Below, one piece after another: positions 18,765-24,826 of a DNA stretch of 50,345 nucleotides. Position 1 is the first letter of the stretch; every line of letters starts with the position of its first letter. Made by a program: the position numbers and the translations under genes. Source of the DNA: Candidatus Magasanikiibacteriota bacterium (lineage in GTDB: Bacteria > Patescibacteriota > Patescibacteriia > Magasanikbacterales > UBA922); NCBI GenBank assembly GCA_018652595.1, contig JABIBU010000022.1:1-50345 (forward strand). Reading direction: 5' to 3'. The notes beneath the pieces were generated by a model. That model saw only the letters and a list, made by a program, of their open reading frames with translations, was not told where the DNA came from and did not search any database.

Positions 18765-18836
18765 ATTTTTTCAATGTCATCCCGAGCAAAACCCTGAGAA
18801 TACAGGGTGTAGCCGAGGGATCCCTTTAAGTATTAA

Positions 18837-19166
18837 TTAAAACTTTTTAATTTTTCTTTTGTTAGTAGGAAACCAATCGTGTGACAGGTCAACCCATTTT
18901 GGATTGTTGAGTTTTATTAAATTCTGTTTCTTTATCCTACTCCAATTTTTAAGTTGCTTTTCTCTAGCTATTGCTTGATTTATATCATTATATTCTTCGT
19001 ATCTTACCAATCGATAGCAATCATATTTTTTTGTAAATCCATCTACTAATTGAAACTTATGTTCCCAGGCTCTTCTTAGGATATTATTTGTTACTCCAAT
19101 GTATAGTGTGCCTGTGATACTAGACATTATATATACAAAATATACTCTTTCCCTCCTATTGTACAT
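18837..19166 (-). CDS. GIY-YIG nuclease superfamily protein
   Basis: 'VYFVYIMSSITGTLYIGVTNNILRRAWEHK...RYEEYNDINQAIAREKQLKNWSRIKKQNLI'. Confidence 0.92.
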   Translation of the reverse strand: MYNRRERVYFVYIMSSITGTLYIGVTNNILRRAWEHKFQLVDGFTKKYDCYRLVRYEEYNDINQAIAREKQLKNWSRIKKQNLIKLNNPKWVDLSHDWFPTNKRKIKKF

Positions 19167-19235
19167 AAAAAGGTATTATAGTGATTCTAAAAGAGATCCC
19201 TCGACTACGCTCGGGATGACAGCATGAGAAAAAGC

Positions 19236-21751: not shown

Positions 21752-22789
21752 TTATCCAAACAAAGACCATACCCACTCTTTCATCCACTCATTTTTGCAG
21801 TGTTTAAACAGCCCCAAATAAGATTGTAGTGTCTGGTCAAAACTCTCGCGAGTAATCACGCCAACTCGTAGTAGGGATTGTTTTTGTCTTAGTTTTCTTA
21901 TCATTCTCTGTTTCGTCTTTGTCCTCAACACAATATGGTGTGGTAAAATAACATAACCAAGAAAGTCTATACCTTGATTGGTTTTACGGACTGAAATTTT
22001 ATTAGGGTGAAGTGCGAGCGAAAGCTTGGTTTGAAGAAAATTATTTAACCGGATGACAATATTTTGCAAGTGTCGCTTATCTTTATGAAGAACGATAAAA
22101 TCATCACAATATCTAATATAATATTTTTCTTTCAAAACATGTTTAACAAATTGATCTAGTTCATTTAGATAGATATTAGCAAATAACTGACTGGTAACAT
22201 TGCCGAGAGGTAAGCCCTTATTAGTGGCCGTATGAAAGCTGTTGATAATTTTACTAACTAAATCTAGAGTATCTTTATCTTTTATTTCTTTTTTAATTAA
22301 ATTTAACAAAATATCGTGATCAATATTATAAAAAAACTTTTTAATATCGCATTTTAATGCGTAAATTGTTTGATGATTATTTTTACTAGCAGAACGAGTA
22401 AATTTGGCCAAACGTTTTACCCCAATATGAGTACCCTTATTAAATCTGCAAGAATATGAATCAAAGATAAACTTTTTATCAAAAACATGATAAAGCACTC
22501 TAAAGACAGCTTGAAACACTACTCTATCCTTAACGCTTGCCTTATGAATTGGCCTCAACTTTGGATCTTTAACATAAAAAAATTCATATTTGTTTGGTAA
22601 ATAAGTTTTTTCTGCCAATCGTTGGTGCAAATCAAACAAATTATTTTCCAAACAAAAAGAAAAATCACAGACATCGCTTTTATTCATCTTACCCCGCTTG
22701 AATTCAGACCAAGCGGAAAGTAAATTCTCAACAGAAATAATATCATCAAAAATTTTATGACTTTTACGCCCCCCCCCCGACAATATCAA
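21752..22789 (-). CDS. DGR-type reverse transcriptase
   Basis: RT core; 'GLPLGNVTSQLFANIYLNELD' (LGxxxSQ signature of DGR RTs), catalytic 'YIRYCDDFIVLH'; only in-frame start near 5' end is TTG. Confidence 0.95.
   Translation of the reverse strand: MILSGGGRKSHKIFDDIISVENLLSAWSEFKRGKMNKSDVCDFSFCLENNLFDLHQRLAEKTYLPNKYEFFYVKDPKLRPIHKASVKDRVVFQAVFRVLYHVFDKKFIFDSYSCRFNKGTHIGVKRLAKFTRSASKNNHQTIYALKCDIKKFFYNIDHDILLNLIKKEIKDKDTLDLVSKIINSFHTATNKGLPLGNVTSQLFANIYLNELDQFVKHVLKEKYYIRYCDDFIVLHKDKRHLQNIVIRLNNFLQTKLSLALHPNKISVRKTNQGIDFLGYVILPHHIVLRTKTKQRMIRKLRQKQSLLRVGVITRESFDQTLQSYLGLFKHCKNEWMKEWVWSLFG
22769..22778. repeat. Homopolymer C10 (G10 in RT coding strand) at the RT 5' end
   Basis: ttttacgcccccccccc... 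run of ten C at 22769-22778. Confidence 0.9.
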
Positions 22790-22817
22790 AGCTTCTATTG
22801 TGCATAAGATAGAAAAG

Positions 22818-23135
22818 ATGTATAAAATTATTTATTTAAACAGCCAAAAACTAAATAAAAGCGACAAGCTTGGTATGCGTGCCAAGACTGAAAATATTTG
22901 TCTGAGGTGCCTGCACTTGGCAATTGAGGCGGCTCTAATTAATAAAGAAAATAAAACACCAATTGTCAAAAAACTAAAACTAGAGATTGAAATATTGAAA
23001 CAATTTGTACGACTGGAAATGGAATTAGAGATAATCAATGAAAAAACATATCTAATTTGGCAAAACCACTTACAAGAGATGTCTAAAATGACAAATGGTT
23101 GGTTGGAGTATTTACAGAAAAAGAACCTTACATAG
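22818..23135 (+). CDS. avd: Avd-like accessory variability determinant (S23/four-helix-bundle type)
   Basis: Helical ORF 'KLGMRAKTENICLRCLHLAIEAAL...LEIEILKQFVRLEMELEIINEKTYLIWQNHLQEMSKMTNGWLEYLQKK' adjacent to DGR RT; alternative GTG start at 22800. Confidence 0.85.
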   Translation: MYKIIYLNSQKLNKSDKLGMRAKTENICLRCLHLAIEAALINKENKTPIVKKLKLEIEILKQFVRLEMELEIINEKTYLIWQNHLQEMSKMTNGWLEYLQKKNLT

Positions 23136-23148
23136 GTTCCTTTCTTGT

Positions 23149-23267
23149 ACTTCGGAGCGAGGGCGGATGTTGCCGTTGGCATTGTCAGGATGGACATTGT
23201 TGACCTGGAACTTGTTGTCGTTCCAGTTGACACACGGAACGTTGCTGTCATGATAGCGCGAACCCGC
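23149..23267 (-). repeat. DGR template repeat (TR)
   Basis: 119-nt ungapped alignment to 23566-23684 at offset 417; 25 of 26 mismatches at T (+ strand) = A (coding strand) of this copy. Confidence 0.96.
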
Positions 23268-23416
23268 TTTTTGATCAGCCCCGTCAAAAATCACCGGTAA
23301 TCTTTTGCAAAATTACCTGAGTTATCCCATGGCGTGGGCATTGTATAGAGTTGACCAAGCAGTCCCAATCTTAATGACAAATCGCTATCTAAACTTACGT
23401 CAAGACCGATTTAGCA

Positions 23417-23457
23417 GTCAAACAAATTTTGTCTAAAATAAACAAAATTTGTTTGAC
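23417..23457. other. Hairpin with perfect 16-bp stem between VR and TR
   Basis: gtcaaacaaattttgt - ctaaaataa - acaaaatttgtttgac. Confidence 0.85.
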
Positions 23458-23561
23458 CCCGATTTGCGTGTCGAGGTGGCACGCTCCGAAACTAATCGGA
23501 GAGAAAAAGATCAGATTGTAGGGGGTATGGAAGGAAGGGTAAAAGGAACGAGTGAAAAGGG

Positions 23562-24290
23562 TTAGACTGCGGAGCGAGGGCGGACGAAGCCGCGAGCAAA
23601 GTCAGGACGGACATAGCGGACCCGGAACTCGCCGCCGCGCCAGTAGACACACGGAACGTCGCCGACACGACAGCGCGAACCCGCACACATGGTCCAGTTC
23701 AGCAGGTCGAGATGGCCTCCACCAGTCTTCCAGTGATACCAGAGCTCGAGCAAGAGACGCTCGAGCAGGGTGATGTTGTCACCCGCCTGCTTGGTGAGCT
23801 GGTTGGCCGAAGTATTCTTGTTCTCTTCATCGGCCTCCACTCGGTTACGGAAACGACGAGCGTAATCGTCCTGAGACACACGGTCGTTCTTCGGTACCTT
23901 GTTATCCAGATTATCGCCATAGTACGACGAACACGGAAACAAGTCACGACACTTGGCATACACTCGGTTGAGCGTAAGCCCCTTGGTGACCATCACGACC
24001 CAGCCGAATCCGCCGGAGTCATCCGGAATCTTGACACCGGACAAATCCACAGTCATACCAAGGACTTCCTGGTAAAACCTCGTCAGCTCGACGACCCAGC
24101 CATCAGCTGGATTGTTGGTGTCGACCGAGGCCTGTGACGGACGATCCAGAATAGTCTCTGGATTCGGACGCTCGATGATGAGCTGGAGAAGCTTGTTCAC
24201 TCCCCCCACCGAACGCTTCTCACCCACCAAAAGACCAAGGACAGACCACAGCAATTTCACAAACTTCTTCCACACATTGCCACTTTCCAT
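23562..24290 (-). CDS. DGR target protein, C-type-lectin-like/formylglycine-generating-like C-terminal variable domain (242 aa)
   Basis: C-term 'CAGSRCRVGDVPCVYWRGGEFRVRYVRPDFARGFVRPRSAV' encoded by VR; SD GGAGG before ATG at 24290. Confidence 0.92.
   Translation of the reverse strand: MESGNVWKKFVKLLWSVLGLLVGEKRSVGGVNKLLQLIIERPNPETILDRPSQASVDTNNPADGWVVELTRFYQEVLGMTVDLSGVKIPDDSGGFGWVVMVTKGLTLNRVYAKCRDLFPCSSYYGDNLDNKVPKNDRVSQDDYARRFRNRVEADEENKNTSANQLTKQAGDNITLLERLLLELWYHWKTGGGHLDLLNWTMCAGSRCRVGDVPCVYWRGGEFRVRYVRPDFARGFVRPRSAV
23566..23684 (-). repeat. DGR variable repeat (VR) at 3' end of target gene
   Basis: See TR; ends within 2 nt of the target stop codon TAA (23562-23564). Confidence 0.96.
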
Positions 24291-24493
24291 AGCACACCTC
24301 CAAAAAAAGAAATTTATACCCACTATGCATAGGCATACCCTTTTCACCATGAGAAGAGATGTTATTCTTATACCATATTTTAAGTGTTTTGTCAAGTTTT
24401 TCTGACTGATCAACCATCTTCTACTTTCCCAACTACTGCTCTTGACAATTTTCTAGCCCTATGATATAATCATGCCACTATTAAATTTGAAAT

Positions 24494-24826
24494 ATGAAAG
24501 CAAAAATTCACCCAAAATACCACGATGAAGCAGTAGTAACTTGCGCTTGTGGTAATAACTTCAAAGTTGGCTCTACTGAAAAGGAAATCAGAGTTGAGCT
24601 TTGTAATATGTGTCATCCTTTTTATACAGGCAAACAAAAGTTTGTTGACACAGCTCGTCGTGTAGAAAAATTCCAAGAAAAGATGGGCAAGGTAAAAGCT
24701 GCAGCCGCTGCCAGAAAAGGCAAAAAGGCTAAAAAAGCTGCTACCCAAGCCAAAAAAGACAAGGTGAATGGCGGAGCCAAAGAGAGTGGCCTGGGCCACG
24801 ACGACAAGAAAAAAGAATCTAAATAG
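24494..24826 (+). CDS. rpmE: 50S ribosomal protein L31 with Lys-rich C-terminal extension
   Basis: '[60 protein letters not shown]'. Confidence 0.92.

Follow-up and report, generated by a model that had tools for sequence, protein, structure and literature searches.

The 50,345-nucleotide stretch of Candidatus Magasanikiibacteriota DNA analyzed here (the window) carries a complete diversity-generating retroelement (DGR) of the Patescibacteria clade, with a reverse transcriptase (RT), Avd, a template repeat (TR) and a target gene ending in a variable repeat (VR), and the expression of its machinery is probably phase-variable through a slipping repeat at the overlap of the avd and RT genes. As a DGR, the cassette is a further case of a known element type. 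RT together with Avd would copy TR RNA into cDNA mutated at adenines, and the mutated cDNA would replace the VR at the 3′ end of the target gene, as the TR/VR comparison and homology suggest. The divergent avd and RT genes are predicted to overlap at their 5′ coding ends, with a hypermutable simple repeat within the overlap, where replication slippage would alter the repeat length and thereby shift the reading frame. In loci of the window type, Avd and RT would be in frame at the same length modulo 3 and one slip could open or close both; in a second large group, the RT start appears to lie beyond the repeat and Avd alone would be switched. Reading frames in the window and its relatives provide strong, if sequence-based, evidence that slipped-strand phase variation acts on the DGR machinery. 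Across Patescibacteria, one slipping repeat probably gates both frames, or that of Avd alone, with a minority of cells diversifying the target while most keep a working VR.

Table 1. Positions of the DGR cassette features within the window.
Feature	Positions	Strand	Remarks
DGR reverse transcriptase	21752..22789	-	345 aa from in-frame TTG 22789; LGNVTSQ and YCDD; RVT_1, E 2.7e-24
ATG, proposed upstream avd start	22757..22759	+	in frame at C9, out of frame at C10
Overlap of both 5′ coding regions	22757..22805		49 nt including the G10 run
Homopolymer run, C10 on + and G10 on -	22769..22778		within the head-to-head avd/RT overlap
avd (bAvd family)	22800..23135	+	antisense to RT and TR; PF22296, 41.8 bits, cut-off 40
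ATG, conserved upstream RT start	22803..22805	-	27 nt upstream of the G run; in frame at G9, out of frame at G10
Stem-loop directly 3′ of TR	23118..23149	-	includes the avd stop codon
TR	23149..23267	-	alignment, repeat search, genome search
Inverted repeat TCAAACAAATTTTG/CAAAATTTGTTTGA	23418..23455		110 nt downstream of VR; seen in the sequence
Target gene	23562..24413	-	up to 283 aa, C-terminus is the VR; homologous targets in close relatives
VR	23566..23684	-	alignment; stop codon of the target gene directly after

On the minus strand the order is target gene (with the VR at its end), TR and RT, and avd lies on the plus strand between TR and RT (Table 1). The RT motifs LGxxxSQ and YxDD are the signature of DGR-type RTs. 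The NCBIfam Avd model NF033474 scores 53.7 bits against avd, below its cut-off of 80. The stem-loop that follows TR is terminator-like on the plus strand for avd (stem 23123-23139) and may serve the TR RNA, avd termination, or both, and the inverted repeat beyond VR is possibly a terminator of the target gene or a hairpin element of DGR targets. The target gave no match in Pfam, NCBIfam or PADLOC and no significant match in the PDB by sequence or by fold. Its AlphaFold model has a mean pLDDT of 78.7, and the best PDB fold matches of the model, to a C-type lectin, are weak (E 1.7-2.2, TM 0.21-0.35). The genome of the window (0.96 Mb, 95% complete) contains one TR, one VR and one target of this family; a search of it for further VRs or targets found none.

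The sequence-only reading had described an ungapped TR/VR alignment of 119 nt at an offset of 417 with 26 mismatches, and every number in it was reproduced on recomputation. Template adenines (T on the plus strand) account for 25 of the 26 mismatches, 25 of the 31 such sites are changed, the sole non-adenine mismatch is a G>A at 23178/23595, which that reading calls silent, and the two translations it quoted differ at 19 of 39 residues. The mismatches are not spread over the four template bases, and chance is excluded (binomial test of mismatches at A against non-A, p 4.8e-14; Fisher p 5.4e-19). An independent repeat search returns the pair as the longest repeat of the region, its similarity ends sharply at both borders of the reported segments, and TR matches in the window's own genome are itself and the one VR, followed by a third match of 19 nt (E 1.2). 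In the coding sense the substitutions are A>G (14), A>T (7) and A>C (4). These statistics, the RT motifs, the avd gene, the intact target ending in VR and a like arrangement in tens of relatives uphold adenine-specific hypermutation by a DGR. The proposal that came with it, that about 80% changed adenines point to many or very efficient rounds of retrohoming, does not follow and is not secure. In the established DGR mechanism VR is rewritten from TR in every round, so changes need not accumulate, and full randomization alone gives 75%, so the fraction of 0.81 in the window does not show many rounds; selection, partial tracts and the per-adenine error rate are inseparable from one sequence. This fraction is the highest among 71 TR/VR pairs from the window and its relatives (median 0.56). 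Pooled over the TR/VR pairs, mismatches lie almost exclusively on adenine, with A>G 719, A>T 312 and A>C 236. As a separate observation on the 71 pairs (L007-L085 and the window), the outcome depends on the base that follows: an A followed by A is changed in 73% of cases, to all three bases, and an A followed by C in 51%, with A>C almost absent (about 1.5%). The BPP-1 enzyme, by contrast, favors A>C where A precedes C (NAC). Selection can contribute to the near absence of A>C in this context.

The shared architecture of these cassettes is evident from related loci. A first set of 80 RT loci, with 44-60% identity in the best segment, was scanned for adenine-specific repeat pairs, which are present in about 65 of them, usually in the order target-TR-RT; later sets comprise 136 loci (earlier) and 174 distinct related loci (final). 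The nearest named relatives are Patescibacteria; among them L006, a Candidatus Magasanikbacteria MAG, is identical over this stretch to L212, a locus from a genome of the window's order. An antisense avd between TR and RT is found in 167 of the 174 loci, its stop lies close to the TR end (median 23 nt), and in most loci a stem-loop comes directly after TR (median z over 66 loci -3.45, 50 of 66 below -2; control segment -0.06). The cassette fits DGR clade 2 of Roux et al. 2021 (PMC8144416), sharing with the Patescibacteria/CPR DGRs of that clade the RT type, the adenine-specific TR/VR pair and a VR at the C-terminus of a target without known domains. Targets of clade 2 are reported there to be without recognisable domains, and Patescibacteria to be among the groups richest in DGRs (PMC8144416). 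The DGR of Bordetella phage BPP-1 likewise combines RT, Avd, TR and VR with a structured element 3′ of TR. Its TR RNA is bordered at the 5′ end by the avd coding sequence, and TR is separated from RT by a spacer (PMC12875486); in the window, by contrast, avd sits in antisense orientation between TR and RT, in head-to-head overlap with the RT gene. No novelty is claimed for the antisense avd arrangement.

Several loci depart from this plan. TR and VR are inverted in L022, L072, L073 and L082, with the VR on the opposite strand downstream of the RT start, and one TR serves two VRs in L022, L023, L039, L053 and L054. Three Staskawiczbacteria loci (L027, L031 and L043, the first two being two cassettes of one contig) are without an antisense avd, with TR about 85 nt from RT, and keep a G run at the RT start. 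The RT matches of L110, L126, L145, L146, L209 and L213 have one or two internal stops and possibly represent decayed RTs in some Patescibacteria genomes.

A simple repeat occurs at the avd/RT overlap in 114 of the 174 distinct loci. It is a run of G8-G13 in 100 loci and another unit in 14, namely GA (7), CCTGT (3), TG (2), and CT or ATTG, and among the 174 loci no unit length is a multiple of three (no 3- or 6-mer). The repeat is not essential to the DGR, because 57 of the 174 loci are without it. The RTs of IMG/VR contigs carry no repeat. The G runs are concentrated at this position: in the 136-locus set, runs of at least 8 are found at the overlap in 66 loci in 20 kb, against 11 G/C runs of at least 8 in the remaining 795 kb of these loci. 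In the window's genome, where a search for G8 found eight G/C runs of at least 8, the G10 of the window is the longest. Repeat type has changed at least 24 times on the RT tree, with a few loci (e.g., L031 and L043) scored as repeat-less despite carrying one, and the well-supported branches alone force 8 changes for poly-G. Copy number also differs between close relatives, at the species level and with one genome per species. L190 and L193, with RTs 91% identical, have G11 and G9; L156 and L189 (85% identical) have G8 and G9 next to an identical 45-nt left flank; L191 and L197, two cassettes in one genome, have G11 and G9; and the GA repeats of L132 and L155 (81% identical) measure 40 and 37 nt, the TTG start being open in just one of the two loci and closed in its partner. 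A search for length variants within a species returned 15 near-identical pairs that are identical over this stretch and are probably the same records.

These properties resemble those of the contingency loci of Neisseria, Haemophilus and Campylobacter, in which the copy number of a 1, 2, 4 or 5-nt repeat at the 5′ end of an ORF sets the frame. The repeat described here lies in the 5′ coding region with a unit that is not a multiple of three, its copy number opens and closes the frame in silico, and copy number varies between close species. Unlike contingency loci, which act on surface antigen or modification genes, the repeat belongs to a hypermutation machine, and a single repeat is shared by two coding regions that run antiparallel. 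The literature searched, which did not include Paul 2017 (a CPR survey) or Wu 2018 (a DGR classification), yielded no account of such a repeat switch between avd and RT or of phase-variable DGRs.

At the assembled G10, the window's ATG frames for avd and RT are both closed, as each meets a stop shortly past the run; at G9, both are open. The computed reading at G9 is MHNRSFDIVGGGRKSHKIFDDIISVENL for RT and MTFTPPPDNIKASIVHKIEKMYK for Avd, which is frame bookkeeping and not a claim of G9 cells; any such cells would make the full-length proteins, and at G10 the long frames of both genes would be closed. At G10, fallback starts are in frame for RT (TTG 22789) and avd (GTG 22800), and therefore "off" may mean a shorter or weaker product. 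The repeat-less relatives L106, L085, L019 and L022 have overlaps of 36-51 nt and read both genes in frame from far-side ATGs with matching N-termini; in L106, which belongs to a small RT clade shared with the window, RT begins MNNRSVNDIGG... and Avd begins MTNKFIASDVIHASIVHKI.... An in-frame Avd ATG is present in 52 of 53 loci without a repeat versus 32 of 111 with one (29%, about one third; Fisher 3e-19), a proportion on which PPP in Avd as a plain protein motif was rejected.

Far-side starts are retained beyond the repeat. All 111 loci keep the Avd frame open between the Avd core and the repeat, compared with 121 of 222 for the other antisense frames, and an avd ATG beyond the repeat and open to the run exists in 86 of 98 poly-G loci (33.5 in shuffled sequences, sd 4.7; all shuffles being first-order Markov resamplings). 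A far-side RT ATG is present in 40 of 48 loci of the window-type group (shuffled 18.0, sd 2.9) and in 12 of 52 of the second group, in which RT has its own ATG past the repeat, at chance (13.3 expected). These counts bear on whether the DGR might instead be constitutive, with a harmless G/C run of irrelevant length and with RT and Avd made from the nearer in-frame codons TTG 22789 and GTG 22800. The window does offer these fallback starts, non-ATG in-frame starts are present in many loci, and random frames would be in frame about one third of the time, as observed. Such an explanation is nevertheless unlikely, given an enrichment of repeats far over background, the replacement of G runs by other units but never by 3- or 6-mers, the use of far-side ATGs with both N-termini conserved in repeat-less relatives, and the open Avd frame and excess of far-side ATGs over shuffles in repeat loci. 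The RT TTG at 22789 is itself upstream of the run and thus length-dependent too.

The location of the repeat between two divergent genes also allows for a transcriptional switch, in which it would act as the spacer of divergent overlapping promoters and the frames would be incidental. Haemophilus influenzae hifA/hifB, two divergent genes under one repeat, provide a precedent, with a variable combined promoter region (reference 120 listed in PMC11868660). At hifA/hifB it is transcription that is controlled, whereas in the window the repeat lies inside both coding regions. A transcriptional role is quite improbable here: no sigma-70-like promoter turned up around the run in a consensus scan, conservation on both sides of the repeat is related to frame, and units of 4 and 5 would strongly alter promoter spacing. 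In the three Staskawiczbacteria loci, where antisense avd is missing, the G run is still present in the region of the RT start, which also weakens the narrower idea that the repeat merely tunes an avd promoter.

Under phase variation by DNA slippage, the frames of RT and Avd would be coupled in window-type loci. Of the 30 loci with both starts unambiguous, 23 require one and the same repeat length modulo 3 for RT and Avd (23 of 25 in an earlier set). This shared ON length is inherited rather than a record of 30 separate events, because an indel within the overlap shifts the two genes at once. Frame states are 6 open, 15 at +1 and 2 at +2 in the window-type group (n=23), and 8 open, 18 at +1 and 16 at +2 for Avd in the second group (n=42). 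The +1 skew in window-type loci exceeds what free slippage predicts, and shared ancestry may explain it. The same skew could point to programmed RNA or ribosome slippage at the G/C run, with a fixed frameshift share setting a constant low level of RT and Avd. This is very improbable in view of the Avd states in the second group and of the differences in run length between close relatives; in addition, none of the GA, TG, ATTG and CCTGT repeats that occupy this position is known as a slippery site. An erroneous G10 call, or pseudogene status of the cassettes, can hardly be credited: the window is a single assembly and homopolymers are error-prone, but repeats, non-homopolymer units included, sit at this position in loci that come from many separate sequencing projects, RT cores are intact, and most loci show adenine-specific TR/VR changes.

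DGRs need to be restrained within the cell, because constant rewriting would destroy good variants. For Patescibacteria, a heritable and reversible on/off switch at the avd/RT overlap would explain how this is done, joining slippage and mutagenic retrohoming in one circuit of unusual design, with one repeat framing two antiparallel genes. We infer that the repeat slips within populations, affects expression and thereby controls VR mutagenesis; if so, metagenome reads should show mixed repeat lengths, with VR diversity tracking the open fraction. The starts of RT and Avd in such genomes are possibly misannotated.

Two further features of the window lie outside the cassette. A small ORF of 109 aa at 18800-19217, GIY-YIG-like by eye, is flanked by 34-nt inverted repeats that are 76% complementary. 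On the plus strand, 24442-24470 is a perfect TTGACA-17-TATAAT promoter match with a TG extension, just upstream of an ORF at 24494 that is ribosomal protein L31-like by eye.
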